Of a stretch of DNA of 64,000 nucleotides, positions 47,732-61,872 are shown piece by piece; within the stretch, counting starts at the first letter, position 1; each line of letters starts with the position of its first letter. The notes under the pieces are model-generated. The model saw only the letters and a program-made list of their open reading frames with translations. It was not told the DNA's origin and did no database searches. Source of the DNA: Actinotalea lenta (GTDB taxonomy: Bacteria; Actinomycetota; Actinomycetes; Actinomycetales; Cellulomonadaceae); the NCBI RefSeq assembly GCF_030586465.1, contig NZ_JAUQYP010000001.1:847400-911399 (forward strand). Direction: 5' to 3'. Made by a program: the position numbers and the translations under genes.

Positions 47732-47770
47732 GATGACGCGGGACACCCATGAACGATGTCCCGCGTCATC
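47732..47770 (-). terminator. Original tRNA-Ser terminator, now separated from its gene
   Basis: GATGACGCGGGACA (47732-47745) pairs perfectly with TGTCCCGCGTCATC (47757-47770). It lies 3 bp from the displaced tRNA-Ser 3' half and has the correct position and direction for the terminator of a leftward tRNA gene, supporting this end as the original downstream flank. Confidence 0.75.
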
Positions 47771-47773
47771 AGA

Positions 47774-47829
47774 GCGGAGGATGGGGGATTCGAACCCCCG
47801 AGGGCTGTTAACCCAACACGCTTTCCAAG
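47774..47829 (-). repeat. Displaced tRNA-Ser 3' half (attachment site, left end of the element)
   Basis: 33 bp (47774-47806) are identical to 61656-61688 and 19 bp (47811-47829) to 61692-61710; the spacer is GTTA here and TGC in the intact gene. Read leftward it carries the anticodon loop CTTGGAAA, variable arm, T arm and acceptor 3' strand but no 5' half. Identity ends within the anticodon stem. It is the duplicated core left by site-specific integration into tRNA-Ser. Confidence 0.9.
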
Positions 47830-48027
47830 TGGCCTGGAGGGGGTGCAGGCGGACCTGCGCGGGTACGTCAGTGCAGGTCATGCCCAGTGCAGCATCCGGC
47901 GGGGACGTCCCGAGATCGGCCTGTACCCAGAGAAACTGCTACCAGAACTGCTACCGACCTGGGGGCCGGAGTGGGCAGTGGCGACGGCCCCACATCGCCA
48001 CGGCGCACCGACCTGTGAGGCGGACGT
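47830..48027. other. Element left end, non-coding, with a tandem arm-type repeat
   Basis: Together with the tRNA fragment and its flank the 417 bp after 47610 hold no credible gene. AACTGCTACC occurs at 47934-47943 and 47946-47955 (period 12), the same double repeat as at 61553-61574 near the other end and in the same orientation. This fits integrase arm-binding sites in an attachment region. Confidence 0.75.
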
Positions 48028-48843
48028 CTACGGTCCGGGGAATGCCTGCCTGAGCTTCTGCAGCGCCGCGTCCGCGTCCACGCCGGTCGGTGTGTGCGCT
48101 GCATCCAGTCGGCCGTAGACGAGGCGGGCGAAGGCCTCCCCGGGAAGCGTGAGGTCATGCGCCTCCGTTCCCGCCGCTTGGGGCGTGAGCACCGCGCTGG
48201 TCGGTGTCAGCTCGACGACGAAGGCGCGTGCTGGGTCGGTCGTGAGGACCGCGAAGGTCGCTGTGTCTCCGGTCGGTTGCCCTGTGAACCTGGCCACGAG
48301 CTCGAGGTTGTCGACGAGCAGCTCGGCGGCCGACCCGGGGATGGTGGCGGCCGGGTTCTGGACGACCTCGATGTCCCAGGTGTGGAAGGCGTGCTCGTTC
48401 AGCCGCATCCCGACGAACTGGGCGAAGTCGAGCGTCATGGGGCCCATGCTTGACGCGAAGGCCGCCCTCTCCTGGGCGGCCACGGCCTCGAGGCGCTCGA
48501 GCAGCTCCGCGTCGGCCGCCAGGGCGTCGTCGCGCTGCGCCTCCGGGCCCTTGGCGTTCCAGAGATCCCAGACGCCGGGCGCGAACTCGGCGGGGGTGTC
48601 CTGACCGGCGAGGGCGTCCTCGAGCCGGCGCTGGGTGATGACGGCTCCGGACCCCAGGTGTGACAGCACGTCCGAGACCGTCCACTCCGCGGGGTACGCC
48701 CGCGTCGTGAGCTGGTGGTCAGGCACGGCTGCGACCACGTCCTTCAGGCGGCGGACCGAGGCCTGGAGCGCGTCGACCTGCGCCTGGCCAACGGTCGCGT
48801 CGGGGGTCTGGCCGGGCGTGGCGTCATCGTGGAGCTGCGTCAT
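48028..48843 (-). CDS. DinB/mycothiol-dependent maleylpyruvate isomerase-like protein
   Basis: 271 residues from ATG 48843. VDALQASVRRLKDVVAAVPDHQLTTRAYPAEWTVSDVLSHLGSGAVITQRRLEDAL is the MDMPI/DinB-like N-terminal metal-binding domain with a conserved His in LSHL and later NEHAFHTWDIEVV supplying further His. The C-terminal domain from residue 180 (ARFTGQPTGDTATFAVLTTD) is the SCP2-like extension of this family. Mycothiol-linked isomerases or transferases of actinobacteria are the closest functional group. Divergent from a TetR gene with a palindrome in the gap. Confidence 0.85.
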   Translation of the reverse strand: MTQLHDDATPGQTPDATVGQAQVDALQASVRRLKDVVAAVPDHQLTTRAYPAEWTVSDVLSHLGSGAVITQRRLEDALAGQDTPAEFAPGVWDLWNAKGPEAQRDDALAADAELLERLEAVAAQERAAFASSMGPMTLDFAQFVGMRLNEHAFHTWDIEVVQNPAATIPGSAAELLVDNLELVARFTGQPTGDTATFAVLTTDPARAFVVELTPTSAVLTPQAAGTEAHDLTLPGEAFARLVYGRLDAAHTPTGVDADAALQKLRQAFPGP

Positions 48844-48862
48844 GCTGCAGACTCTACGACAG

Positions 48863-48880
48863 GTGGGGAATACTCCCCAC
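48863..48880. promoter_or_regulatory. Likely TetR operator
   Basis: GTGGGGA (48863-48869), ATAC, TCCCCAC (48874-48880): a 7-bp perfect dyad midway in the 58-bp gap between the MDMPI-like gene and the divergent TetR gene. Flanking CGACA (48857-48861) and TGTCG (48885-48889) extend the symmetry. Probably bound by the TetR protein at 48902. Confidence 0.65.
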
Positions 48881-48901
48881 TTCTTGTCGGTTGGAGAGGT
48901 C

Positions 48902-49615
48902 ATGACGCTGAGAGCAGACGCCGCCCGGAACCGGGAGGCCATCGTCGAGGCCGCCCGCGCGGTGTTCGCCGAGCAGGGCCTCGAGGCCCCGCTGGACGAC
49001 ATCGCCAAGCGGGCCGGCACGGGGAACGCCACCCTGTACCGCCGCTTCCCGACCCGCGCCGACCTCGTGGCTGCCGTGTTCGCCGAGCGGATGGCCGAGC
49101 ACGTCGACGCGGTCGAGGCGGGCCTCGCGGACGTCGACCCGTGGGACGGTTTCGCGTCCTACATCCGGGCAGTGGGCGCGATGCAGGCCCGCGACCGCGG
49201 CATCGCGGACCTGGTCACCATGAACGTCGAGGCACCCGAGATCGAGGAGCTCCGAACCCGCGCGTACGAGGGACTGGTCCGGCTCGTCGCACGAGCCCAC
49301 GACGCCGGCGTGCTGCGCGCTGACTTCACCGACCAGGACGTCGTACTGCTGCTGATGGCGAACGCCGGGCTGGTGGAGCGGGCGCACGGCATCACGGCCG
49401 AGGCCTCCGCCCGCCTGTTGGCCCTCGTCCTCGACGGCTTGCGCGCCGGCGCCGCGACCGCTGGCCCGCCGGCGCCGCCCGCGGGCCGGGTCGTCGCAGC
49501 GATGCGGCGCAACGGCGAACGCCGGCTCGGCTGCGGCAGCCGCCCAAAGCCAGGACCGGGATCCGCCCCCACCACCCAGACCCCCCACCACTTCCGCGAA
49601 GGACGCTTGACATGA
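48902..49615 (+). CDS. TetR-family regulator of the redox gene block
   Basis: 237 residues. RNREAIVEAARAVFAEQGLEAPLDDIAKRAGTGNATLYRRFPTRADLVAAVFAERM is the HTH domain; the ligand domain follows and the last 45 residues are a basic low-complexity tail. The stop overlaps the ATG of the LLM oxidoreductase gene (ATGA), so it is cotranscribed with at least that gene and autoregulates both it and the divergent MDMPI-like gene. Confidence 0.9.
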   Translation: MTLRADAARNREAIVEAARAVFAEQGLEAPLDDIAKRAGTGNATLYRRFPTRADLVAAVFAERMAEHVDAVEAGLADVDPWDGFASYIRAVGAMQARDRGIADLVTMNVEAPEIEELRTRAYEGLVRLVARAHDAGVLRADFTDQDVVLLLMANAGLVERAHGITAEASARLLALVLDGLRAGAATAGPPAPPAGRVVAAMRRNGERRLGCGSRPKPGPGSAPTTQTPHHFREGRLT

Positions 49616-50649
49616 CGCTCGAGCTCGGTGTGTACAGCTTCGGCAACACCCCCCGCACCCTGGACGGCGGCTACGGCCCCACAGCCCAGGCCGTCCGCGA
49701 CGTCCTGGAGGCCGTCAAACTCGCCGAGGAGGTGGGACTCGACTTCTTCGGCATCGGCGAGCACCACACGCCCTCGATGCCGCTGTCCTCCCCGACGTCC
49801 ATGGTGACCGCGGCTGCGGCGTCGACGGAGCGGATCCGGCTCGGCACGACGGTCACCGTCCTGTCCACGGATGAGCCGCTGCGGGTGTTCCAGCAGCTGG
49901 CGACCGCTGCGGCGATCGCGCCGGGTCGCGTGGAGGCTGTCGCCGGTCGCGGTTCCTCGGCGATCACGTTCTCGCTGTTCGACGAGGACGAGGACCGCTA
50001 CGACGAGCTCTTCTCCAGCAAGTTCGAGCTCCTACTCGCCGCGAACCGCCAGGAGCGGCTGACCTGGAACGGCCCGCACCGCGGCCGCCCGCTGCTTGAC
50101 GCCGTGATCGTGCCGCGGCCCGAGGTGCCGCTGAAGATCTGGCTCGGCTCCGGCGGCAGTCCCGGGTCGGTCAGCCGTGCCGTCGAGCTCGGCGTGCCGC
50201 TGTTCCTCGGCATCCTCGGCGGCACCCCGCAGCACTGGGCGCAGTACGGCCACGCCTACCGCGAGGCGTGGACGCAGGTCGGGCACCCGGCGGACGGAGC
50301 GGACATCGCCGTCGCGGTGCACGGCTTCGTCGGAGCTGACAACGCCGCTGCGAAGGCGACCTACCTCGAGCACGAGCTGCGGATGTTCGCGACCGGCGCC
50401 GCCGAGGTCGGCCGACCCCCGATGTCCCCTCCCGGGCGCGACCGGCAGATGGAACCCGGCGGCATGGTCTTCGCCGGCAGCGCGGACGAGGTCGCCGACC
50501 GGATCCTGCACCTGCACGGCCTGCTCGGCCACACCCGCCAGATCCTGCAGATGGACGTCGGCGGCATGCCGCACGCGACCTACCTCAAGGCGATCGAGCT
50601 CCTCGGCACCCAGGTCCTGCCCCAGGTCCGCGCCGAGCTCGGGGCCTGA
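49612..50649 (+). CDS. LLM-class flavin-dependent oxidoreductase
   Basis: 345 residues. ELGVYSFGNTPRTL, VKLAEEVGLDFFGIGEHHTPSMPLSSPTSM (the H-H of the FMN site), RIRLGTTVTVLSTDEPLRVFQQLATAAAIAPGRVEAVAGRGSS are the bacterial-luciferase alkanal-monooxygenase-like group. SAGFPEIPYGEH-type regions are replaced by LSRS-free loops, so substrate is unclear. First structural gene after the TetR regulator in the element. Confidence 0.9.
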   Translation: MTLELGVYSFGNTPRTLDGGYGPTAQAVRDVLEAVKLAEEVGLDFFGIGEHHTPSMPLSSPTSMVTAAAASTERIRLGTTVTVLSTDEPLRVFQQLATAAAIAPGRVEAVAGRGSSAITFSLFDEDEDRYDELFSSKFELLLAANRQERLTWNGPHRGRPLLDAVIVPRPEVPLKIWLGSGGSPGSVSRAVELGVPLFLGILGGTPQHWAQYGHAYREAWTQVGHPADGADIAVAVHGFVGADNAAAKATYLEHELRMFATGAAEVGRPPMSPPGRDRQMEPGGMVFAGSADEVADRILHLHGLLGHTRQILQMDVGGMPHATYLKAIELLGTQVLPQVRAELGA

Positions 50650-50713
50650 CTCCCACCTACCCGACCGGCCTCGTCGGACGTCGACGCGCGCCACTCATCC
50701 AAGAAGGACACCC

Positions 50714-51067
50714 ATGTTCATCGCACTCGTCGTCGTCACGGTGCTGCTCGCCGCGATCTGCCTCAACAGCGCCGTCATGAAGCTGCGCCAGGCCGAGGCC
50801 GTCGTCGCCGTGATCCACGGCACGGTCGGCGTCCCGAAGAAGTACCTGCCCGTCCTGGCCGCCCTGGAGATCGCGGGCGCGGTCGGCATCGTCGTCGGCC
50901 TGTGGCTCGAGCCCCTCGGCGTGATCGCCGCAGCGGGCCTGGTCGCCTACTTCCTTGGCGCGGTGATCGGCCACCTGCGCGTGCGGGACACCAAGAACCT
51001 CGCCATGCCGCTGCCGCCGCTCGTCCTGGCGATCGCCGTCCTCGTCCTGCGGCTCCTCACCGCCTGA
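50714..51067 (+). CDS. DoxX-family membrane protein
   Basis: 117 residues, four helices: MFIALVVVTVLLAAICLNSAVMKL, VLAALEIAGAVGIVVGLWL, GVIAAAGLVAYFLGAVIGHL and a C-terminal PPLVLAIAVLVLRLL. The Asn-Ser-x-x-Lys in helix 1 and AALEIAGAVGI are DoxX/SURF4-like features. DoxX proteins are linked to quinone-dependent or redox membrane systems; here it travels with an LLM enzyme and quinone oxidoreductase. Confidence 0.85.
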   Translation: MFIALVVVTVLLAAICLNSAVMKLRQAEAVVAVIHGTVGVPKKYLPVLAALEIAGAVGIVVGLWLEPLGVIAAAGLVAYFLGAVIGHLRVRDTKNLAMPLPPLVLAIAVLVLRLLTA

Positions 51068-51134
51068 CCCCTCGGGGCACCCTGCTCAGCCACCACCTCA
51101 CCAACATCACCATCACCGAAGAGAGAGAACCACC

Positions 51135-52067
51135 ATGAAGGCTTTCGCCATCATCGATCGCGACATCCAGCCCGACGTCCAGGACCTCCCCCAGCCCGAG
51201 CCGGGCGCCGGTGAGGTGCTCGTCGAGGTCGAGGCGACCTCGGTCAACGGCTTCGACCTGTCCATCGCGGCCGGATACGTCTGGGACATGCTTCCGCACG
51301 AGTTCCCCGTGGTCCTGGGCCGTGACCTGGTCGGCGCCGTCACCGCCGTCGGTGACGGCGTCGAGACCATCGCGGTCGGTGACCGCGTCGCCGGCGTCAT
51401 CCCCGGCATGGCGCTGGGCGCCCGCACCGGCTCCATCGCCGAGTACGTCGCCCTCGCGGCGACCGCAGTCACCCGGGTCCCGGCCGGTGTGGACGCGCAG
51501 CAGGCGGCGGTCATCGGTCTGGCCGGCGTCGCGGCCCACGACGCGGTCGAGGCCCTCGACATCCAGCCCGGGGAGACGGTCCTGGTCTCCGGGGCGACCG
51601 GTGGCGTCGGCTCGATCGCCGTCCAGCTCGCGGCGGCCGCCGGCGCGACTGTCATCGCTACCGCCCAGCCGGGCCAGGAAGAGGAGTACGTCCGCAGCCT
51701 CGGCGCCGCGCACACCGTCGACTACACCGGCGACGTCTCCGCAGCGGTCAGCGCCATCGCTGCAGACGGCGTTGACAAGGTCGTCCACGCAGCCGGCGAC
51801 GGGGCAGCCCTTGCCGCCACCCTCCGCGCTGGTGGCATCCTCGCGTCCACCCTGGGCGCGACCGCCGAGGCGGTCGGCCGACAGGACGTGACCGTCGCCC
51901 CGATCATGGCCGAGGCCACAGCCGGGAAGCTCGCGGCGCTGCTCGGGCGCGTCGCCACCGGTGACCTGCGGGTCAACGTCTCGACCGCCATCCCGATCGA
52001 TCGGGCACCGGAGGCCTTCGCCGCCTTCACCGGCGGAAAGCTCGGCAAGGTCCTCATCATCCGCTGA
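51135..52067 (+). CDS. NADP-dependent quinone oxidoreductase-like (zinc-independent MDR)
   Basis: 310 residues. GAGEVLVEVEATSVNGFDLSIAAGY opens the MDR fold; VVLGRDLVGAVTAVGDGV is the substrate loop; VLVSGATGGVGSIAVQLAAAAGATVIATAQPGQEE is the NADPH Rossmann motif. Catalytic and structural zinc Cys are absent, so this is a quinone-oxidoreductase (QOR)-type member. It is followed by the poly-G/poly-C tract. Confidence 0.9.
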   Translation: MKAFAIIDRDIQPDVQDLPQPEPGAGEVLVEVEATSVNGFDLSIAAGYVWDMLPHEFPVVLGRDLVGAVTAVGDGVETIAVGDRVAGVIPGMALGARTGSIAEYVALAATAVTRVPAGVDAQQAAVIGLAGVAAHDAVEALDIQPGETVLVSGATGGVGSIAVQLAAAAGATVIATAQPGQEEEYVRSLGAAHTVDYTGDVSAAVSAIAADGVDKVVHAAGDGAALAATLRAGGILASTLGATAEAVGRQDVTVAPIMAEATAGKLAALLGRVATGDLRVNVSTAIPIDRAPEAFAAFTGGKLGKVLIIR

Positions 52068-52078
52068 GCCACCGGCGC

Positions 52079-52202
52079 GGGGGGGGGGGGGGGGGGGGGG
52101 GGCGCGCCCCCCCCCCCCCCCCCCCCCCCCCCAGCGCGCCCCCCGAGCACGGCCCAACACCGCCCGGCCCCCCGCGGGGGGGCCCCCCCCCCCCCCCCCC
52201 CC
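52079..52202. repeat. Extreme poly-G / poly-C palindrome
   Basis: 24 G (52079-52102), CGCG, 26 C (52107-52132), then a 43-bp GC-only stretch, 7 G (52176-52182) and 20 C (52183-52202). The G-run, CGCG and C-run form a perfect inverted repeat of over 50 bp. No such tract occurs elsewhere in the window. It lies between two cargo genes and includes no reading frame worth keeping. Poly-G read artefacts followed by false joining can create exactly this pattern; alternatively it is a real hairpin/G-quadruplex-forming sequence. Confidence 0.9.
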
Positions 52203-52243
52203 GCGCCACCCCTCGCACGCCAAGCCAACCTTCTGGAGCACCC

Positions 52244-52882
52244 ATGAACGTCACCGTCTTCGGCGCGACCGGAGCCATCGGCTCCCTGACCGTCACCGAG
52301 CTGCTCGAGCGCGGGCACACCGTCACCGCCTACGCCCGTAACCCCGCGAAGGTCCCGGCGCTGTGGCGGGACCTGGTCCGCCTGGTCGTCGGTGAGATGT
52401 CCGCCGCCGACGCGATCGACAGCGCCGTCGCCGGCGCTGACGTCGTGGTCAGCGCGCTCGGCCCGAGCATGGACCGCAGGGCCACCGGCGTGCCGCTGGT
52501 CGAGGGCACCGAGCACATCCTGGCCGCGATGCGCCGTCACGGCGTGACGCGCTACATCGGCCAGGCGACCCCAGCCGTGCTGGACCCCCAGGAGAAGCCG
52601 ACACCGGTGACCCGGCTCATCGGGTTCATGCCCCGCACCTTCATGCCGCGCGCCTACGAGGAGATCCGCGGTATGACCGGGCCGGTGATGCGCTCGGACC
52701 TGGACTGGACGATCGTGCGGTTCATCGCCCCCAAGGACACCCCCAAGGGCAACGTCCGCACCGGGTTCTTCGGCACCGACAAGCTCGGCTTCGCCGTCAG
52801 CCGCGCCGACATCGCCGCCTTCACCGCCGCCCAGGTCGACGACGCTACCTACGTGCGCCGCGCCCCCGCCATCAGCAACTGA
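52244..52882 (+). CDS. NmrA-like NAD(P)H-binding protein
   Basis: 212 residues. MNVTVFGATGAIGSLTVTELLERGHTVTAYARNP is a GxxGxxG Rossmann start of the atypical SDR/NmrA type; GADVVVSALGPSMDR and DWTIVRFIAPKDTPKG follow. No SDR YxxxK pair is evident, so it may sense or reduce small molecules. Placed after the homopolymer tract and 22 bp before another NmrA-like gene. Confidence 0.85.
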   Translation: MNVTVFGATGAIGSLTVTELLERGHTVTAYARNPAKVPALWRDLVRLVVGEMSAADAIDSAVAGADVVVSALGPSMDRRATGVPLVEGTEHILAAMRRHGVTRYIGQATPAVLDPQEKPTPVTRLIGFMPRTFMPRAYEEIRGMTGPVMRSDLDWTIVRFIAPKDTPKGNVRTGFFGTDKLGFAVSRADIAAFTAAQVDDATYVRRAPAISN

Positions 52883-52903
52883 CCTCGAGGAAGAACGACA
52901 GCC

Positions 52904-53758
52904 ATGACCATCGCCATCATCGGTGCCACCGGACAGCTCGGTGCCCTGACCATCGACGCCCTGCTCGCCCGCGACGTCGCACCCGCCGACATCCTCGCCC
53001 TCGGCCGCAACCCCGAGCGCCTGGCCGCCCTCGCCCAGCGCGGCGTCCGCACCGCGGCCCTGGACCTCGACGACATCGAGGGCACCGCAGCAACCCTGAG
53101 TGGTGCCGAGAAGCTGCTGCTCATCTCCGTCGGTGCGCCCGGGCAGGCCCTGGCCCCGCGCGGCAACGCCATCGAGGCCGCGCGTCGCGCCGGCGTCGGG
53201 CACCTGGTCTACACGTCGGCCCTGCAGGCGCCCACGACCATCCTCGGCCTGGCGGCGGAGCACAAGGCCACCGAGGAGCTCGTGACCGCCTCAGGCCTGC
53301 CCGCGACGTTCCTGCGCAACGGCTGGTACACCGACAACCACCAGCAGGACTTCGCCACCGCCCGCGAGCACGGCGTCGTCGCCAACAGCGTCGGTGACGG
53401 GCGCCTGGCCACCGCCCCGCGCAAGGACTACGCCGAGGCGGCGGCGGTCGTCCTGACGGCCTCCGGGCACGAGGGCGCCGCCTACGAGCTGTCCGGGGAC
53501 ACCGCCTGGAGCTACGGAGAGTTCGCCGCCACCGCGGAGGACGTGCTCGGCACCCCTGTGCGCTACCAGCCCCTCACCTCCCAGCAGGAGCACGCCCAGC
53601 TCATCGGGTTCGGGCTGGACGAGGCCACCGCCGGGTTCCTCGTGGCCCTGAACGCCAACATGCGCGACGGCGCCCTCGCCCCCACAACCGGTGACCTCGC
53701 CCGCCTCATCGGCCACCCCACCGAGCCGCTCGCCACGACCCTGCGCCGCTGGGCCTGA
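52904..53758 (+). CDS. Atypical SDR, QOR2/NmrA-like quinone oxidoreductase
   Basis: 284 residues. MTIAIIGATGQLGALTIDALLARDV opens the Rossmann fold; SAEHKATEELV-type segment LAAEHKATEELVTASGLPATFLRNGWYTDNH is the hallmark of QOR2/YtfG-like proteins (NAD(P)H:quinone oxidoreductase 2 group); GAAYELSGDTAWSYGEFA follows. Its combination with the MDR quinone oxidoreductase, LLM and DoxX suggests a quinone or electrophile detoxification set. Confidence 0.87.
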   Translation: MTIAIIGATGQLGALTIDALLARDVAPADILALGRNPERLAALAQRGVRTAALDLDDIEGTAATLSGAEKLLLISVGAPGQALAPRGNAIEAARRAGVGHLVYTSALQAPTTILGLAAEHKATEELVTASGLPATFLRNGWYTDNHQQDFATAREHGVVANSVGDGRLATAPRKDYAEAAAVVLTASGHEGAAYELSGDTAWSYGEFAATAEDVLGTPVRYQPLTSQQEHAQLIGFGLDEATAGFLVALNANMRDGALAPTTGDLARLIGHPTEPLATTLRRWA

Positions 53759-53789
53759 ACCCGCGCGTCTCACGGCCGAGGAGAACTGC

Positions 53790-54461
53790 ATGATGCACGA
53801 CGACCAAGCCCAGACCATCGGTGTCCTCGGGGCCGGCAAGGCAGGCAGCGCGATCGCTCGCCTGGCGCTGCGCGCCGGGCTGGATGTCCTGATGGCCTCC
53901 TCGAGGCCGACGGCTGACCTCACCGAGCGCCTACTCTGCGTCGCGCCGGGCGCCCGGGCGACGAGCACCGAGCAGCTCCTCGCAGAGGCGGAACTCGCGA
54001 TCTTGGCCGTTCCCCTGCGCCGGTTTCGCGAGCTGCCCCTAGCGCTGCTCGCGGACCACGTCGTCGTCGACCTGATGAACGACTGGCCGTCCCACGATGG
54101 CATGCTGCCTGACTTCGCCGGCGCCGACCGGCCCTCGTCGGTGATCGTGCAGGACGCGCTCCCGACCACCGCGCGTCTGGTCAAGACCCTCAACCACCTC
54201 GGCTACCACCAGATCGAAGAGCTCGCCCGACCCGCCGGCTCGACCGACAGAGCCGCTCTCGCCGTCGCCGGCGACGACCCCAACGCTGTCGCGACCGTCG
54301 CCCGCCTCATCGACCGCCTCGGGTTCGACGCCGTCCGTGCCGGCACCCTGCACGACAGCGCCACTATGCAGCCCGGATCCGTCATCTTCGGGATGCACCT
54401 CGGCGCCGACTCGATGCGGCGCGCTCTGGTCGCGGCGACTGGCGACACCCGCGCTGCGTGA
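53790..54461 (+). CDS. F420 reductase-like NAD(P)-binding protein (element copy)
   Basis: 223 residues. MMHDDQAQTIGVLGAGKAGSAIARLALRAGLDVLMASS is a GxGxxG start; AILAVPLRRFRELPLALLADHVVVDLMNDWPSHDG, VKTLNHLGYHQIEE and DRAALAVAGDD align with the layout of the host protein at 29131-29826 (FNO/ProC-like), but the sequences have clearly diverged. Last gene of the redox block; a hairpin follows 7 bp after its stop. Confidence 0.82.
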   Translation: MMHDDQAQTIGVLGAGKAGSAIARLALRAGLDVLMASSRPTADLTERLLCVAPGARATSTEQLLAEAELAILAVPLRRFRELPLALLADHVVVDLMNDWPSHDGMLPDFAGADRPSSVIVQDALPTTARLVKTLNHLGYHQIEELARPAGSTDRAALAVAGDDPNAVATVARLIDRLGFDAVRAGTLHDSATMQPGSVIFGMHLGADSMRRALVAATGDTRAA

Positions 54462-54800
54462 CCCCTACGAGTCAGTCGGCACCCACGACGGCTGACTCCT
54501 CTTGCACGTCGTGCCGATGACGGCCGCGGTGGTCCCCGTCGTCGGCACGCCCGTTGTGGTGCGTGACACCACCGGCGGCGCGGCAGGCCCGCCCGATAGC
54601 GCCTCAACTGCGCCGCACGAGCCCGCACGGCACCACAGCCGGCACGTCCCATCCGTGCGGTTGCGCTCGGGCTCGCCTACCTGCCTGTAGACGCCGGCGT
54701 ACGACCACCAAGCATCTTCTTTCCTCCTTCCGCACACCTGCGGGTAAGGGGCAGGTGGCTTCGTGCCTCTCGGGGTCCGCCGAGGAGGTGGTGCGAGGTG
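54462..54800. other. Non-coding region before the relaxase gene, possible oriT
   Basis: No credible gene. GAGTCAG (54469-54475) and CTGACTC (54492-54498) form a 7-bp hairpin directly after the preceding gene, either a terminator or part of a transfer origin. The region then shows short repeats (GTCGTGCCGATGAC) and ends with a purine-rich RBS. MobF elements usually have oriT just upstream of the relaxase, but no known nic motif was recognised. Confidence 0.4.
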
Positions 54801-57710
54801 ATGTCGATGCACAAGCTGACGGCTGGCGACGGGTACGCGTACCTGACCCGGCACGTGGCCGCGGGCGACGCAGGCCTCCGCGCGGGCGACTCGCTGACCG
54901 CCTACTACGAGCAGACCGGCGATCCGGCGGGGCGCTGGTACGGCGGCGGGCTCGCGGGGCTCGGTGGCGACGGGGGCAAACGGCTCCGCCCGGGTGATGC
55001 CGTCACCGAGCAGGCGATGACGGCTGTCTTCCGCGACGGAGTCGACCCGCTCACCGATGACGCGCTCGGCCGCCCCTATGGCCGGTTCGATGACGGGAAG
55101 CGGCACGCCGTCGTCGGCTACGACCTGACCTTCACCGCCCCGAAGTCCGCCTCCGTCCTGTGGGCGCTGGCCGATGACGCGACCAGGGCCACCGTCTATG
55201 GCGCGCACCGCGCGGCGCTCGCGTCGTCGTTGGAGTTCGTCGAGCAGCGCGTCATCCGCACCCGCGTGGGTGAGGCCGGCTGCCGGCAGGTTCGAACGCG
55301 CGGGATGGTGGCGGCAGCCTTCGACCACTGGGACACCCGGGCCGGCGACCCCAACCTGCACACCCATGTCGTCATCGCGAACAAGGTCCAGGGTCCCGAC
55401 GGCGCCTGGCGCAGCGTCGACGGGCGCACGGTGCATGCCGCGGTCGTCACGGTCTCCGAGCTCTACGACGTCTTCCTGGCCGACGAGCTCGCCCGACGGC
55501 TCCCGGTCGACTGGTCGATGCGGGACCGCGGACCCCGGCGCAACCCTGCGTTCGAGCTGAGCGGCATCGGCGACGACGTCCTCGCTCACTTCTCCGCCCG
55601 GGCCGAGCAGATCCACTGCGCAGAGCAGCAGTGGCTCGCCGAGTTCGAGGCCGCTCACGGCCGCGCGCCGACGCGCGTCGAGACCACCAAGGCTCGGCAG
55701 CACCTCACCCGAGCGACTCGCCCGCCGAAGGTCGTGCGTCGCCTCGCCGACCTCCTGGCCGACTGGGGCAACCGCGCGCGCGCCCTGACCGGCGTCGAGC
55801 CGCGCGACCTCGCCTCCCGCGCGCTGACCGGCACGTACGGACGGCCGTTGCGGGCGCATGACGTCGGACCCGAGGTCCGGGCCGCGATGGTCGCCGGTGT
55901 CATCGATGTGGTTTCCACACGGCGCTCGGTCTGGACCACCTGGAACCTCGGCGCCGAAGCCGTGCGCGCCTCGAAGCTCCTCCGGATGGCCTCACCCACC
56001 GAGCGACGACACCTCCTGAACACCATCACGGCCGGCGCCGCGGCCGCCTGCGTCCACCTCGACGACAACCGGGACCCTGCCACCCGCCGGGCTGGAGAGT
56101 CCCTGTTCACGACCACCGAGCTCCTCGGCGCCGAACGCGTACTCCTTGACGCGTCCGAGGCCGGCGGCTTCCCGCACCGCCCACCTGAGGCGCTCGGCCA
56201 CCCGACGATGCGCACCGAGCACCTCCTGGGCGCGCTCGCCGCAGACCAGCGAGCTGCTGCCGAAGCCGTCATCACTTCCGGGCACCTCCTCGACGTGCTT
56301 GTCGGTCCGGCTGGCTCCGGCAAGACGACGACGCTCGCCGCCCTCACCTCGTTCTGGCGTCAGAGCGTCGGACCGGTCGTCGGGCTGGCCCCGTCCGCCT
56401 CGGCCGCGCACACCCTGTCCGCCTCCCTCGGCGTCACCTGCGAGACGACCGCGAAATGGCTTCACGAGTCCACCGGCGACGGTGCCGCCGCACGCGCCGG
56501 TCGCTACGCGGAGACCCTCGAGCGGAGAGACACCGCCGGGGTGATCGAGGCGCGCGAACTCCACCAGGAGCACTGGCGGATCCGCATCGAGCAGGACACC
56601 TGGCGGTTCAGCCCCGGCCAGCTCGTCATCGTCGACGAAGCCTCACTCGCAGACACCCGCACCCTCGCGACGATCGTCGAGCAGGCACGCGCTGCCACGG
56701 CGAAGGTGCTGCTCGTCGGCGACCACCTCCAGCGCGGCTCCGTCGACGCCGGCGGGGCGTTCGCCATGCTCGCCCGCCGCGGACCCACCGCCGAGCTCAC
56801 CAGCCTGTGGCGTTTCGCTCACCCGTGGGAGGCCCGCGCGAGCCTCGAGCTGCGCCGCGCCCACCGCGAAGCCCTCGACGCTTACGAGAACCACGGTGCG
56901 TTCAGCGCCGGCAGCCACGACGACGTGCTCGATGCCGCCCTGGCCGCTGCCAGCACCGCCCAGGGGCACGGCCGGGTCGCCATCGTCCAAGCCGTCGACA
57001 ATCGCACCGTGCGCGACCTCAACGCCCGCGCCCGCTCCGACGGCATCCTGTCCGGCACGGTCGCCCGCGACGGCGTCGCGCTCCATGACGGTCTGACCGC
57101 CGGTGTCGGCGACCGCGTCGTCACCCGTCGCAACCACCGGCGCCTGCGGACCTCTGACGGCTACGTCCGCAACGGCGCACTGTGGGACGTCACCGAGGTC
57201 ATGCGCGACGGCGCCCTGCGCGTCCGCCCCGTCCAGCGCGACGGCCGCTCGGACGTCAGCTCGCCAGAAGTTCGTCTACCGGCGTCCTACGTGACCGAGC
57301 AGGTCGAGCTCGGCTATGCCACCACCGTCGCCCGCACCCAAGGCATGACCGTCGATGAGACGCACACCATCGCCGCGCCCGGGATGGGCCGCGAAGACCT
57401 GTACGTCGCGATGAGCCGCGGCCGACACGCGAACCGCACGTACGTCGTCGTCGAGGAAGCCGACCCGGACTGCCTGCCGGGCCAGGCGCCTGCGTCGAGC
57501 CGCGAGGTGCTCGAGCAGATCCTGGCGACCAGCCACGCCGAGCCGACCGCGACCGAGACGTGGGAGACCTACCACCCGCACGAACACGCGCCGCTCTTGC
57601 CACCAGTCCATCCACATCAGCCCTGGGGCGCGCCCTCTCCACAGCCGGCGCCGAACCGCTTGACCACTACCCCGCCGCCAGTACCCGATGGTCGGGTGCT
57701 GGGCCTCTGA
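54801..57710 (+). CDS. MobF (TrwC/TraA-type) relaxase-helicase
   Basis: 969 residues. MSMHKLTAGDGYAYLTR is the relaxase start with the candidate catalytic Tyr (12/14). The three-His metal site is DHWDTRAGDPNLHTHVV (H176, H187, H189). A helicase part follows: Walker A near residue 500 (VGPAGSGKTTT), Walker B VIVDEASLAD, and a C-terminal UvrD_C-like YVAMSRGRHANRTYVV. This is the MobF family that nicks oriT and unwinds DNA during conjugation. GTG 54798 is an alternative start. At 969 residues it is shorter than many TraA proteins. No coupling protein or T4SS lies nearby, so it likely depends on a helper element. Confidence 0.92.
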   Translation: MSMHKLTAGDGYAYLTRHVAAGDAGLRAGDSLTAYYEQTGDPAGRWYGGGLAGLGGDGGKRLRPGDAVTEQAMTAVFRDGVDPLTDDALGRPYGRFDDGKRHAVVGYDLTFTAPKSASVLWALADDATRATVYGAHRAALASSLEFVEQRVIRTRVGEAGCRQVRTRGMVAAAFDHWDTRAGDPNLHTHVVIANKVQGPDGAWRSVDGRTVHAAVVTVSELYDVFLADELARRLPVDWSMRDRGPRRNPAFELSGIGDDVLAHFSARAEQIHCAEQQWLAEFEAAHGRAPTRVETTKARQHLTRATRPPKVVRRLADLLADWGNRARALTGVEPRDLASRALTGTYGRPLRAHDVGPEVRAAMVAGVIDVVSTRRSVWTTWNLGAEAVRASKLLRMASPTERRHLLNTITAGAAAACVHLDDNRDPATRRAGESLFTTTELLGAERVLLDASEAGGFPHRPPEALGHPTMRTEHLLGALAADQRAAAEAVITSGHLLDVLVGPAGSGKTTTLAALTSFWRQSVGPVVGLAPSASAAHTLSASLGVTCETTAKWLHESTGDGAAARAGRYAETLERRDTAGVIEARELHQEHWRIRIEQDTWRFSPGQLVIVDEASLADTRTLATIVEQARAATAKVLLVGDHLQRGSVDAGGAFAMLARRGPTAELTSLWRFAHPWEARASLELRRAHREALDAYENHGAFSAGSHDDVLDAALAAASTAQGHGRVAIVQAVDNRTVRDLNARARSDGILSGTVARDGVALHDGLTAGVGDRVVTRRNHRRLRTSDGYVRNGALWDVTEVMRDGALRVRPVQRDGRSDVSSPEVRLPASYVTEQVELGYATTVARTQGMTVDETHTIAAPGMGREDLYVAMSRGRHANRTYVVVEEADPDCLPGQAPASSREVLEQILATSHAEPTATETWETYHPHEHAPLLPPVHPHQPWGAPSPQPAPNRLTTTPPPVPDGRVLGL

Positions 57711-57747
57711 TCGGCATCACCCAACCCAACCCAAGAGGAGAACAGCC

Positions 57748-57963
57748 ATGAGTGACATCGAGATCATCGAGACCCCGCGCGTCATGCTCAGCGTCACCGA
57801 CGCCGCCGCGTGCCTGTCGATCGGCCGCACCACGATGTACGAGCTGATCCACAGCGGCGCGATCGAGACCGTGCACATCGGCCGGCTCCGGCGCGTGCCC
57901 GCCGACGCGCTCACCCAGTTCGTCGAGCGGTGCCGCCGCGAACAGCACCCCAAGGTGCCGTGA
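57748..57963 (+). CDS. Excisionase-like helix-turn-helix protein
   Basis: 71 residues, RBS AAGAGGAG. MLSVTDAAACLSIGRTTMYELIHSGAIETVHIGRLRRVPADALTQFVE is the MerR-like winged-helix excisionase (Xis/HTH_17) fold. Placed 5 bp before the integrase gene, so probably the recombination directionality factor for the element. Confidence 0.88.
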   Translation: MSDIEIIETPRVMLSVTDAAACLSIGRTTMYELIHSGAIETVHIGRLRRVPADALTQFVERCRREQHPKVP

Positions 57964-57967
57964 CCTG

Positions 57968-59191
57968 ATGGGCACTCGGGCCGGCAACCAGCGCTCGTCG
58001 ATCTTCCAGGGCAACGACGGGCGCTGGTACGGCTTCGTGACGATGGGCATCCAGCCCGACGGCTCGGTCGACCGCCGCAAGCGTTCGGGCGCATCACGGG
58101 CCGACGTGGTCCGCAAGGTCCGCGCGCTCGAACGCGAGCGGTCCGACCAGTCCGCCCTCCCAGCGGGCCCGTCACCGCGGCTGGAGACCTGGCTGACCGA
58201 GTGGCTGTCGGCCACAGCGCTGCGCGTCCGGCCGAGCACCCTCTCGGGCTACACCGTCGACGTCCACCGCCACATCAACCCCGCCATCGGCAAGCACCGC
58301 CTCGATGCGCTCCAGCCCGAGCACATCGAGCACCTCTACACCGCGCTGCTCGCCAACGGCCTGAACGCCGGCACCGTCCACCACGTACGCCGGACGCTGA
58401 ACAAGGCACTGAACGACGCGTTCCGACGACGGCGCCTCCCGGGCAACCCCGTCGCGCTCGCCCACACGCCGCGATACAACCCGCCCGAGATCGAACCGCT
58501 CACGGTCGACGAGGCCCGCCGCATCCTCGCCGCTGCCGAGAACGAGCCCAACGGGGTGGCGTTCATGCTCGCCATCTCGCTCGGGCTGCGGCGCGGCGAG
58601 GTGCTGGGTCTGTCATGGGCCGACGTCGACCTCGACGCTGGCCGGCTGCAGGTGCGCCGTCAGCTTGAGCGACGGAACTGGCGGCACGGGTGCGCTGATC
58701 TAGACCGCTGCCACGAGCGGCCATCACGCTGCCCGCACCGCAAGGAGGGCGGGCTGGTCCTTACCGAGCTGAAGACGAAGCAGTCGCGCCGCACGCTGCC
58801 ATTGCCAGAGCCGTTGCTGATCGCCCTGCGGCAGCACAGGCGTCGGCAGCGCGAGGCTCGCATCCACGCGGGGACGCTGTGGCGAGACTCCGGGCTCGTC
58901 TTCACGAACCTCGTAGGGCGACCGGTCGCCCCGCACGACCACTCGCTGCACTGGACGGCGTTCCTCGAACGGCTCGGGATCCGGCCGGCGCGGCTGCACG
59001 ACGCCCGGCACACGGCCGCGACGCTGCTCCTGGTCCAGGGCGTCGACCAGCGCGTCGTCATGAGCATGTTCGGCTGGACGTCGCCGGCGATGACGACCCG
59101 CTACCAACACGTCGTGCCGGAGCTCGTGGAGGAGGCCAACCGTCGAATGGGGGTGCTCCTCTGGGGAGCGAGCGACCACGGGACCGGTTAA
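57968..59191 (+). CDS. Tyrosine-type site-specific integrase
   Basis: 407 residues. N-terminal arm-binding domain in residues 1-70 (SSIFQGNDGRWYGFVTMG), core-binding SAM-like domain (70-165), catalytic domain with R208 (GLRRGEVLGL), K271 (TELKTKQSRR), H344-x-x-R347 (HDARHTAAT), W370 and nucleophile Tyr379 (TTRYQHV). A Cys/His insertion (CADLDRCHERPSRCPHRK, residues 242-258) is typical of actinobacterial integrases. It acts on the duplicated tRNA-Ser core and, presumably, the tandem AACTGCTACC arm sites at both ends. Confidence 0.95.
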   Translation: MGTRAGNQRSSIFQGNDGRWYGFVTMGIQPDGSVDRRKRSGASRADVVRKVRALERERSDQSALPAGPSPRLETWLTEWLSATALRVRPSTLSGYTVDVHRHINPAIGKHRLDALQPEHIEHLYTALLANGLNAGTVHHVRRTLNKALNDAFRRRRLPGNPVALAHTPRYNPPEIEPLTVDEARRILAAAENEPNGVAFMLAISLGLRRGEVLGLSWADVDLDAGRLQVRRQLERRNWRHGCADLDRCHERPSRCPHRKEGGLVLTELKTKQSRRTLPLPEPLLIALRQHRRRQREARIHAGTLWRDSGLVFTNLVGRPVAPHDHSLHWTAFLERLGIRPARLHDARHTAATLLLVQGVDQRVVMSMFGWTSPAMTTRYQHVVPELVEEANRRMGVLLWGASDHGTG

Positions 59192-59287
59192 AGGAATTTG
59201 GCAGCCGTACCAGGTGCTCGCCACCCGGATCTGCAGAGGATGCCCGTCGCAGTGCCAATGACGCCCCACGTCGGGGACCGGTGAGTT

Positions 59288-59698
59288 TCAGGTGTCCTGC
59301 GACGGTCTCGTGAGTACGTGGCAGATGTCGTCGTCTGCGCAGTCGGCGGGGTCGAGCAGGTGGCTGTCCTCGAGGAGTGCTTCCAGCTCGCCTTGCATCG
59401 CCGCAAGGTGCCGGATCCGCGCCCGTACGTCGGTGAGCTTGGCGTCGATGAGCGCGACGACGTGCGCGCAGGGCACGGTCCCGTCATCACGGAGGTCGAT
59501 GATGCTGCGGATCTCGGACAAGGTGAGACCGGCGGCCTGCGCCACGGTGATGAAGCGCAACCGGGTGAGCATGGACTCGTCGTAGACGCGGTAGCCGTTG
59601 GCGCCCCGATCGGCCACGGGCAGCAGGCCCTTGCGCTCATAGAACCGGATGGCCTGGCTGGTCATCCCGGCAACGTCGGCAAGCTCACCGATCAGCAT
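59288..59698 (-). CDS. MerR-family metal-responsive regulator
   Basis: 136 residues. IGELADVAGMTSQAIRFYERKGLLPVADRGANGYRVYDES is the MerR HTH; a dimerisation helix follows. Cys at 77 (GTVPCAH), 120 and 126 (PADCADDDICHVL) match the three-Cys Hg(II)-binding pattern of MerR in number and order. It lies divergent from the thioredoxin-like gene with a long-spacer promoter between them, so it activates that operon on metal binding. Hg(II) is plausible; other metals are not excluded. Confidence 0.9.
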   Translation of the reverse strand: MLIGELADVAGMTSQAIRFYERKGLLPVADRGANGYRVYDESMLTRLRFITVAQAAGLTLSEIRSIIDLRDDGTVPCAHVVALIDAKLTDVRARIRHLAAMQGELEALLEDSHLLDPADCADDDICHVLTRPSQDT

Positions 59699-59716
59699 CT
59701 CGTCCGTCCTTCACCC

Positions 59717-59748
59717 TTGACCTTCTACCACGGTACAAGGTCTAGCGT
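59717..59748 (+). promoter_or_regulatory. MerR-type promoter and operator
   Basis: TTGACC (59717-59722) and TAGCGT (59743-59748) are separated by 20 bp, the long spacer expected for MerR-activated promoters. Inside is a dyad ACCTT-n-TACC-AC-GGTA-n-AAGGT (59720-59741). The ATG of the next gene is 7 bp past the -10, suggesting a leaderless transcript. Confidence 0.85.
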
Positions 59749-59755
59749 CGCAGGC

Positions 59756-60070
59756 ATGGAGATCTCGCTGCTGTACTTCGATGGCTGCCCGAACTGGAAG
59801 GTCGCCGACCAGCGGCTCGCCTCGATCGCCTCCGAGCGCCCCGACGTCGTGGTGACGCGTCACCGCGTGGAGACCATGGAGGAGTCCGAGCGGCTGGGGT
59901 TCCACGGCTCGCCGAGCATCGTGGTGGACGGCGTCGACGTCTTCGCCGAGCCGGGCGCCGGCGTGGGGTTGTCGTGCCGGGTCTATCGCACGCCCGACGG
60001 CTTGGCCGGGGCGCCCACGATGGACCAGCTCAGGACGGCCCTTGGCGTGAAAGACGTGGCGGCGAGATGA
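59756..60070 (+). CDS. Thioredoxin-like protein of the YFDGCPNW type
   Basis: 104 residues. MEISLLYFDGCPNW has a single Cys at 11/12 where thioredoxins have CxxC; GSPSIVVDGVDVFAEP resembles the cis-Pro strand of a thioredoxin fold, and a second Cys lies in GLSCRVYRT. Such proteins are found in actinobacterial mercury and metalloid operons and are sometimes annotated DF-family (seleno)proteins. First gene under the MerR-type promoter; its stop overlaps the reductase start (ATGA). It likely passes metal or thiols to the reductase. Confidence 0.82.
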   Translation: MEISLLYFDGCPNWKVADQRLASIASERPDVVVTRHRVETMEESERLGFHGSPSIVVDGVDVFAEPGAGVGLSCRVYRTPDGLAGAPTMDQLRTALGVKDVAAR

Positions 60071-61419
60071 TGAACGCCTACGACCTGATCGTGATCGGCG
60101 CGGGGATGGCCGGCGTCTCGGCGGCGAACAAGTGCGCCGCTGCGGGTTGGAGCGTCGCCATCGTCGACGCGCTGCCCTACGGCGGCACCTGCGCCCTGCG
60201 CGGGTGCGACCCGAAGAAGATCCTGCGTCGCGGTGCCGAGATCATCGACAGCGCCCGGCTCATGCGGGGCAAAGGCATCGACGACGCCGGCCTGTCGATC
60301 GACTGGCCCGACCTGATCAAGCACAAGCACGCCTTCACCGACCCGGTCCCGGCCAATATGGAGCAGGGCCTGTCGAGCAACGGCGTCGACACCCTGCACG
60401 GCTCTGCGCGGTTCACCGGTGCGAACACCCTCGCGATCGACGGCACCACGTACGAGGCAGCACACTTCCTTATCGCCACCGGCGCACGCCCCCGTCCACT
60501 GGACGTCCCCGGTCACGAGCACCTGGTCGACAGCACCGAGTTCATGGACCTTCCCGAGCTGCCGAAGCGGATCCTATTCGTCGGTGGCGGCTTCGTCTCC
60601 TTCGAGTTCGCCCACATCGCGGCCCGCGCGGGCAGCACGCCGGTCATCCTCGACCGCGGTCCCCGGCCGCTCAAGGCGTTTGACCCCGATCTCGTCGAGC
60701 TCCTCATCAGCCGCGGCGCCGACGCCGGGATCGAGCTGTGGCGCTCCACCACGGTCACCGCGATTCAGAAGTCCGGGACCTCCTACCTGGTCCGCGTGGA
60801 ACGCTCCGGCCAACCCGAGACGGTGGAGTTCGACCTCGTGGTGCACGGCGCGGGCCGGGTACCGGACCTATCCGGCCTGCACCTCGACGCCGCCGGCGTG
60901 GAGTGGGATGAGAGTGGCGTGCGGGTGGCTGATCACCTGCAGAGCACGAGCAACCCGTCGGTCTACGCGGCCGGCGACGCTGCCAACAGCCCAGGGATGC
61001 CGCTGACCCCGGTCGCGGTCTTCGAGGGCAAGGTCGCCGCGTCGAACATGCTCAAAGGCACCACGACCGTCCCGGACTACGCGGGCGTCCCGACGGCGGT
61101 CTTCACGATCCCCGAACTGACCCGGGTCGGGATGCTCGAACAAGAGGCCCGGGACCAGGGCATCGACGTCGACGTCCGTTACCGCGACACCAGCGGCTGG
61201 TACTCCAACTACCGGATCGGCGAGACCACTGCGGCCACCAAGGTCCTCGTGGACCGATCCAGCGACCGGATCGTCGGCGGACACCTCCTCGGCCCGGGGT
61301 ACGGCGAACTCATCAACGTCCTTGGCCTGGCCATGAAGCTCGGACTGACCACCCGCCAGCTGAAGTCGATGACCGCTGCTTACCCGACCGTCGGATCAGA
61401 CCTCGGCTCGATCCTCTGA
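60067..61419 (+). CDS. FAD-dependent NAD(P)-disulfide oxidoreductase (MerA-related)
   Basis: 450 residues. IGAGMAGVSAANKC FAD loop, redox pair C42/C47 in GGTCALRGCDPKK (CxxxxC), second Rossmann VGGGFVSFEFAHIA, AAGDAANSPGMPLTPVA, and a C-terminal dimerisation domain from about residue 330 (VFTIPELTRVGM, VGGHLLGPGYGELINVLGLAM). MerA would end with a vicinal Cys pair and often has an N-terminal heavy-metal domain; both are missing, so it is not a standard mercuric reductase. With its MerR and thioredoxin-like partners it probably reduces a disulfide/metal-adduct or a metalloid. Confidence 0.9.
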   Translation: MMNAYDLIVIGAGMAGVSAANKCAAAGWSVAIVDALPYGGTCALRGCDPKKILRRGAEIIDSARLMRGKGIDDAGLSIDWPDLIKHKHAFTDPVPANMEQGLSSNGVDTLHGSARFTGANTLAIDGTTYEAAHFLIATGARPRPLDVPGHEHLVDSTEFMDLPELPKRILFVGGGFVSFEFAHIAARAGSTPVILDRGPRPLKAFDPDLVELLISRGADAGIELWRSTTVTAIQKSGTSYLVRVERSGQPETVEFDLVVHGAGRVPDLSGLHLDAAGVEWDESGVRVADHLQSTSNPSVYAAGDAANSPGMPLTPVAVFEGKVAASNMLKGTTTVPDYAGVPTAVFTIPELTRVGMLEQEARDQGIDVDVRYRDTSGWYSNYRIGETTAATKVLVDRSSDRIVGGHLLGPGYGELINVLGLAMKLGLTTRQLKSMTAAYPTVGSDLGSIL

Positions 61420-61608
61420 CGTGCCGTGGCGAGCCGGCTGGCGCACCTCGCCCGCACGTAGCGTCCAGGGGCAGATCCGCTCATGCCGCTGCAGCCACCA
61501 CAGGCGCGACGACGGCATGCGCGCTCCAGCATCAGCTGGACACTCGCGCACAAACTGCTACCAAAACTGCTACCGCCGCCCCGCCGGCCGCCCGCACCCG
61601 CACACGAC
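61420..61608. other. Right-end attachment region with tandem arm-type repeats
   Basis: No credible gene. AACTGCTACC occurs at 61553-61562 and 61565-61574, matching the pair at 47934-47955 in sequence, period and orientation. In the excised circle these two pairs would flank the tRNA core on both sides, as arm-type integrase sites do. Confidence 0.7.
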
Positions 61609-61650
61609 GAAGGGCCCGCAACCCACATCTCTGCAGGTCACGGGCCCTTC
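61609..61650 (-). terminator. Terminator-like hairpin behind the restored tRNA-Ser
   Basis: GAAGGGCCCG (61609-61618) pairs with CGGGCCCTTC (61641-61650), 6 bp from the tRNA 3' end. It would act as the tRNA terminator after integration, replacing the original at 47732-47770. Confidence 0.65.
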
Positions 61651-61656
61651 ATGCGG

Positions 61657-61741
61657 CGGAGGATGGGGGATTCGAACCCCCGAGGGCTTGCACCCAACAC
61701 GCTTTCCAAGCGTGCGCCATAGGCCACTAGGCGAATCCTCC
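61657..61741 (-). tRNA. tRNA-Ser (anticodon GGA), restored integration target
   Basis: 85 nt. Acceptor stem GGAGGAT/ATCCTCC, D arm GCC...GGC, anticodon stem CACGC/GCGTG with loop TTGGAAA (anticodon GGA), long variable arm TTGGGTGCAAGCCC typical of tRNA-Ser, and T arm GGGGG-TTCGAAT-CCCCC. CCA is not encoded. The 3' half (61656-61710) is duplicated at the far end of the element at 47774-47829; the variable-arm loop differs (TGC here, GTTA there), so this 3' half probably came with the element. Confidence 0.97.
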
Positions 61742-61872
61742 CGGGCTGCGCAGTGCACCGATCCTCGATGCTCATGGCAGGCGCACACGGCCGGTGCGCG
61801 CACGGCAGTGTACGCGAGGATCGGGTCCGACCGCGAAGCCGCCCTGCGTCCCGCACGACCGGCCGGAGCCTT

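Follow-up and report, generated by a model that had tools for sequence, protein, structure and literature searches.

A probable mercury resistance operon pairing a GbsMerA-type reductase with a thioredoxin-fold protein, carried by an integrated element of Actinotalea lenta

Three genes at positions 59288-61419 of the window, the 64,000-nucleotide stretch of Actinotalea lenta DNA analysed here, probably form a compact Hg(II)-inducible resistance operon that travels as cargo of an integrated mobile element. The reading we favour is a variant of mer in which a GbsMerA-type reductase works beside a thioredoxin-fold protein, the mercury chemistry being argued from relatives. The three are genuine genes, mostly as an earlier sequence-only reading of this DNA had described them, and the set was found again in many genomes, which makes it more than chance. 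The merR gene is divergent from the DF and reductase genes, and the features are as follows.

59288-59698, minus strand: MerR-family regulator of 136 amino acids with C77, C120 and C126, over the cut-offs of Pfam MerR and MerR-DNA-bind
59717-59748, plus strand: MerR-type promoter, with -35 TTGACC at 59717-59722, a 20-bp spacer and -10 TAGCGT at 59743-59748
59719-59724 and 59737-59742: promoter dyad, perfect 6-bp arms GACCTT and AAGGTC
59756-60070, plus strand: DF-family thioredoxin-fold protein of 104 amino acids with C11 and C74
60067-61419, plus strand: GbsMerA-type NAD(P)/FAD disulfide reductase of 450 amino acids with C42, C47, D48 and Y439

The 20-bp spacer and clear dyad that the sequence-only reading had pointed out were confirmed. 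A long-spacer dyad promoter with a MerR regulator is one of the marks of a mer operon, and the trio has it; the spacer of the Tn501/Tn21 mer promoter is reported as 19 bp (PMC11049809). A site of the form TTGACN-(18 to 21 bp)-TANNNT adjoins merR in 49 of 78 merR rows (the window, 4 plasmid and 73 genomic), with a 20-bp spacer in 48 and 19 bp in one, against 0.05 expected for the 20-bp form by letter shuffles; the site is a family trait. The 29 rows lacking it comprise the whole merT-type group of 24, in most of which a different dyad is seen by eye, together with L045, which has TTGAGC where the site was sought, and L055, L064, L089 and L091, which were missed because the script misplaced the merR start. 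The DF start codon lies 7 nt downstream of the -10 in the window, and among the 39 DF rows that have the site the distance is 6 or 7 nt in 36; given so short a distance, the DF mRNA is probably leaderless. The reductase gene starts at 60067, in an ATGA overlap with the DF gene.

The redox-active CxxxxC pair of the reductase is C42/C47, and the enzyme lacks both the vicinal C-terminal Cys pair and the N-terminal metal domain (NmerA), all of which had already been noticed in the sequence. The accompanying proposal of a distinct operon type, in which a regulator and a small thiol protein accompany a MerA-like enzyme without the usual metal-handling parts, holds. Among the 25 best of 101 NCBIfam matches of the reductase none passed its cut-off. 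The glutathione-disulfide reductase model scored 325.8 bits, more than the MerA model TIGR02053 (283.5 bits, cut-off 454.45), and this order counts against a mercury reading. Canonical MerA was rejected as an identity on the absent Cys pair and the score far below the cut-off; RclA (177.5 bits, cut-off 740), mycothione reductase and lipoamide dehydrogenase were rejected as well, all falling below their cut-offs.

By sequence, the top PDB match was 8k40 at 420.6 bits, with the runner-up at 251.4, and the window reductase is 43% identical to this protein. Y439 aligns with its Tyr437, so that the enzyme has the Tyr of canonical MerA, Tyr441 of the Tn501 core, which we take to be Tyr605 in RC607 numbering. 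The remaining residues correspond likewise (C41, C46 and D47 of GbsMerA to C42, C47 and D48), and the His-Glu pair of RclA and the group 1 enzymes is Tyr/Ser in both proteins. Entry 8K40 is GbsMerA with FAD, from Gelidibacter salicanalis PAMC21136 (PDB 8K40/8K41), a published mercuric reductase without NmerA or a Cys-Cys tail, whose Tyr437 is equated with Tyr441 of the Tn501 core (PMC10587081). Its report gives NADPH oxidation of 474.7 umol/min/mg with HgCl2, 236.5 with AgNO3, 97.3 with GSSG and 69.0 with MnCl2, activity being followed, in the available passages, as NADPH oxidation and not as Hg(0); the Y437F mutant was inactive, Y174F had half the activity, and expression in E. coli led to a smaller HgCl2 inhibition zone (PMC10587081). 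The reported oxidation with Ag(I), GSSG and Mn also counts against a mercury reading. The missing Cys pair had been taken as a pointer away from mercury, and this argument finds no support: GbsMerA, reported as Hg(II)-active, is without the same two parts, and the si-face C, C, D and Y are kept. That reading had also allowed that the group might turn out to be proven mercuric reductases, which GbsMerA, at 43% identity, bears out in part.

The same features recur across the 87 reductases compared (the window, 6 plasmid and 80 genomic, the last being the best 80 of at least 572): CC is absent from the final 25 residues of all 87, YP[S/T] is found there in each of them, and 85 carry GTCALRGCDPKK. 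A maximum-likelihood tree was built from 64 selected rows, namely 38 of the 87 reductases, GbsMerA, 15 phylum-scan relatives (5 near, 10 distant), 7 MerAs and 3 paralogs from the window's genome, several long branches being flagged. The operon reductases, GbsMerA and the phylum-scan relatives form one clade (support 100/100) and canonical MerAs a separate one (98/96); GbsMerA with the ten distant relatives (95/68) is the sister branch to the operon reductases (99/97). With the si-face C, C, D and Y, the Tyr-Ser, a tail without the Cys pair and its place in this clade, the window reductase has the marks of the GbsMerA type. The two enzymes are both one-domain FAD disulfide reductases with GTCALRGCDPKK, a Tyr for the catalytic His, neither NmerA nor Cys pair, a mercury-operon context and the 100/100 clade in common; they differ in their 43% identity, in lying on sister branches and in Tyr174 of GbsMerA, which is Phe in the window. 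The GbsMerA operon is given as arsR, merT/P, merA and a hypothetical protein, with no DF or MerR named in the available passages of the report (PMC10587081). With canonical MerA (Tn501 type, TIGR02053) the window reductase shares the family, the redox Cys pair and the Tyr at the C-terminal metal site, but it lacks the vicinal C-terminal Cys and NmerA and falls outside the canonical clade. At E <= 1e-90 the reductase was found in 16 of 396 searched genomes of the window's phylum, taken from the relatives to be Actinomycetota.

Gene neighbourhoods were compared in the best 80 of at least 572 matches of a genome scan for reductase relatives, a sample that for this reason favours near relatives, with neighbours counted within 4.5 kb of the reductase. 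Among these best 80 loci a divergent merR is present in 73 and a DF gene directly upstream of the reductase in 39. The arrangement of the window, merR with DF gene and reductase, recurs in 31 of the 80, joined by a small CC membrane protein in another 7 and by merB in 1. The order merR-merT-merP-merF-merA-reductase accounts for 16, and another 8 loci have merR-merT(+/-P/F)-reductase and lack canonical merA. In 6 loci merR is the lone counted neighbour (by eye, L081 also encodes a CC membrane protein), in 3 it is accompanied by the CC protein, and in 4 merA or merB occurs in other combinations (L049, L083, L111, L121). The last 4 lack all of the counted genes (by eye, L065 encodes a CC protein), which counts against the mercury reading. 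At least one classical mer gene (merT/P/F/B or merA) lies nearby in 29 of the best 80 loci, a further result at odds with the earlier pointer away from mercury, and canonical merA in 19; two BLAST-panel calls of canonical MerA (L050, L055) have tails without CC and were left out of the counts. Ten tested neighbours pass the Pfam cut-off for MerB (5/5), MerT (3/3, one a fragment), MerF (1/1) or, for the MerP row, the heavy-metal-associated domain; two of the five MerB come from the 80-locus sample and three from the phylum-scan loci L023, L028 and L029.

Six plasmids were examined among at least 40 listed matches. The trio form was found in Pimelobacter, Iamia, Cryobacterium and Herbiconiux, and the reductase stands behind merA or merB in Phaeobacter and M. 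abscessus. The mer operon of pMAB23 (M. abscessus ATCC 19977) resembles the window in having a 67%-identical reductase, right after merB; it differs in having arsR for merR, in its canonical merA, merH and merB, and in that no DF gene is annotated. The window itself gave no panel match to merT/P/F/H, merB or canonical merA between 53001 and 64000, so that a mercury transporter, MerP or MerB, expected in a mer operon, was not found in the trio by the panel; this too counts against the mercury reading. In favour of the mercury reading, no canonical MerA over the cut-off was found in the window's genome. A MerB search of that genome returned zero matches, its control being equally silent.

Some of these neighbourhoods fit an accessory role in mercury stress, a thiol-repair module whose reductase leaves Hg(II) itself unreduced. 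The enzyme would instead maintain the DF protein, or else a low-molecular-weight thiol, in the reduced state, and Hg(II) would be bound and passed to other enzymes. This is the main rival, and we consider it unlikely. It has a precedent in the glutathione reductase genes of mer operons "sometimes called MerK" (PMC11227200), to which the window reductase is likened by description only, as a further FAD disulfide reductase within a mer operon. The position after canonical merA in the 16 merR-T-P-F-A loci (best 80 of at least 572) and after merB in the M. abscessus plasmid agrees with it, as do the closest NCBIfam model (glutathione-disulfide reductase, among the 25 best of 101), the reported oxidation of NADPH by GbsMerA with GSSG (PMC10587081), the finding of no mycothione reductase over the cut-off in the window's genome, and DF genes that adjoin FAD disulfide reductases other than canonical MerA (L014, L034, L039; the tail in L019 is unreadable). 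Canonical MerA over the TIGR02053 cut-off was found in 8 of 29 genomes searched; two of the eight (L068, L110) had been picked for their locus merA, and the remaining 6 are among the other 27. With canonical merA co-occurring in 19 of the best 80 loci and 8 of the 29 genomes, the enzyme may have an accessory role. However, of the genomes holding the 8 loci with merT and without merA, 6 have no canonical MerA over the cut-off and 2 have one elsewhere, although a missing MerA is no proof of absence because some genomes are draft or metagenome assemblies. These six genomes, together with the six loci among the best 80 of at least 572 in which merR and the reductase are the sole panel genes (with the CC protein of L081), are hard to explain by a mere helper. 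The Tyr/Ser in place of the His-Glu pair, as in GbsMerA, also argues against such a role.

Small membrane proteins with a CC pair were observed in several loci. The one at L001:5777-6004 lies between the DF gene and the reductase and resembles a mercury transporter, with no Pfam or NCBIfam transporter model matched; similar proteins are found in L053, L055, L058, L060, L063, L067 and L106. In L086, a Cys-rich protein (1498-1941) flanked by the CC membrane protein and the reductase scored 86.7 bits with NF047645, a putative iron-sulfur metallochaperone (cut-off 100).

The regulator is below the NCBIfam cut-offs of CadR/PbrR, ZntR, MerR and CueR and is nearest by score to CadR/PbrR (97.5 bits, cut-off 151.45). 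The sequence-only reading was right about its three Cys (C77, C120, C126) and wrong in seeing the mer-type arrangement. The classical Cys positions of the Hg(II)-responsive MerR (Tn501 type), judged here by the 24 merT-type MerRs of the sample, in which residues 77, 112 and 120 are Cys and residue 126 is Leu, are not all filled: C77 and C120 are in common, residue 112 is Ser in the window and Cys in 24 of 24 merT-type MerRs, and C126 is extra. The absence of one classical position counts against the mercury reading. Among the 54 rows without merT, Cys is found at 77 in 54, at 120 in 54 and at 126 in 52, the MerRs of L092 and L111 being the two exceptions. The nearness to CadR/PbrR and the regulator's own Cys layout would suit an operon of the same parts serving another soft metal or metalloid (Ag(I), Cd(II), Au, As(III)) or an oxidant, and so would the reported use of Ag(I) by GbsMerA at half the Hg rate (PMC10587081). 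We regard this as quite improbable: the recurring neighbours are the mercury genes merT, merP, merF, merB and merA, which would be unexpected for other metals, and the RclA score is far below its cut-off.

The partner had been described as a single-Cys thioredoxin-like protein; it is thioredoxin-like, but a second Cys is present, and C11 and C74 are both conserved in every one of the 44 aligned operon members (the window, 4 plasmid and 39 genomic). Its AlphaFold2 model is confident (mean pLDDT 92), and the nearest PDB folds are mostly thioredoxins with modest scores, 0 of 1161 matches reaching E 0.001 or better. Against NCBIfam NF049942, "DF family (seleno)protein", the window protein scored 67.6 bits (cut-off 70), and all 32 of the 44 operon members that were scanned matched this model; in the family, positions 11 and 74 are occupied by Cys or by a TGA codon. 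DF genes were found in 77 of the 396 searched genomes of the phylum, and an in-frame TGA was marked in 13 DF rows of the phylum scan. It aligns with C11 in eight (L148-L154, L156) and with C74 in one (L157); L155 and L158, also among the 13, are absent from the later alignment to C11/C74, and in L017 and L035 the TGA is merely the gene's own stop codon. At these two positions of distant relatives TGA is probably read as selenocysteine, and both Cys sites therefore point to reactive thiols.

Counting against the mercury reading, the DF family is not specific to mercury, since no panel match to mer genes other than DF was found within about 3 kb either side in 7 of 7 loci L148-L154, and no merR was seen among the frames read around a second DF-family gene of the window's genome (L142:4670-4993). 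By eye, this second copy stands beside response-regulator-like and peptidase-like frames. The DF genes of L014, L019, L034 and L039 adjoin FAD disulfide reductases of other kinds; those of L014, L034 and L039 were rejected as canonical MerA because their tails are without CC, and that of L019 runs off the locus. No paper on DF selenoproteins was found in our literature search, which returned general selenoprotein papers only, and the name "DF family" has 0 occurrences in the available passages of the one review searched for it.

As a hypothesis for its role, the DF protein probably delivers Hg(II) or electrons, and a putative feeding of the reductase by it, as first suggested, is plausible. 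In a bolder version the two would form a two-protein mercuric reductase, with the DF protein replacing NmerA and the C-terminal Cys pair and loading Hg(II) onto the reductase; we hold this as a tentative possibility and lean against it. For the favoured mer variant, the genes, the promoter, the conserved residues, the gene neighbourhoods and the phylogeny are established from sequence. We propose the following course, in which the inducer, the direct use of Hg(II) by the enzyme and the DF role are inferred. MerR would sit on the long-spacer promoter and, on binding Hg(II) through its three Cys, untwist it. A two-gene transcript, probably leaderless and translationally coupled, would give the DF protein and the reductase. 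C11/C74 of the DF protein may take Hg(II) from cellular thiols and hand it on, or supply reduced thiol, so that the protein would be a stand-in for MerP/NmerA. By means of NAD(P)H, FAD and C42/C47 the reductase would convert Hg(II) to Hg(0), its metal site including Y439 and D48. Direct reduction of Hg(II) is suggested by the 43%-identical relative and by operons in which the reductase takes the place of merA.

A large survey of mer genes is described as having screened MerA candidates for the vicinal C-terminal Cys pair (PMC8261052). As this pair occurs in 0 of the 87 reductases, the class would be lost in such a screen, and the mercury-reducing capacity of Actinomycetota and some Pseudomonadota may be undercounted. 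With this operon one could test how a mercuric reductase functions when the metal-handling tail is missing, and the DF thioredoxin family gains a context linked to mercury. Our searches of the open-licence literature turned up no paper about the MerR-DF-reductase set; for Arthrobacter H-02-3, merA and merB are reported, with thioredoxin unmentioned in the available passages (PMC6978705).

An element of about 13.9 kb integrated at tRNA-Ser (window 47767-61747) carries the trio, which lies between the integrase and the attachment site. The parts of the element are listed below.

47774-47829, plus strand: left attachment repeat, 94.6% identical to the tRNA-Ser 3' end
54798-57710, plus strand: TrwC-type relaxase
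57688-57963, plus strand: excisionase-like protein
57968-59191, plus strand: tyrosine integrase
61656-61710, plus strand: right attachment repeat, inside tRNA-Ser (61655-61741, minus strand)

Other genes of the element encode a TetR regulator, a luciferase-like monooxygenase and two NAD(P)-binding proteins. The element was also found in Cellulomonas fimi SB (NZ_JABCJJ010000001.1), where window 47767-52081 is matched at 99.8% and window 52200-61747 at 99.9%; the two blocks are separated by about 120 bp that did not align. In the 1.75 kb on each side, the right flank gave no match to C. fimi SB and the left flank a single one of 29 bp. The left junction in C. fimi SB resembles the right end of the window element (61554-61710, 85.7%), as expected from a tRNA-Ser site there.
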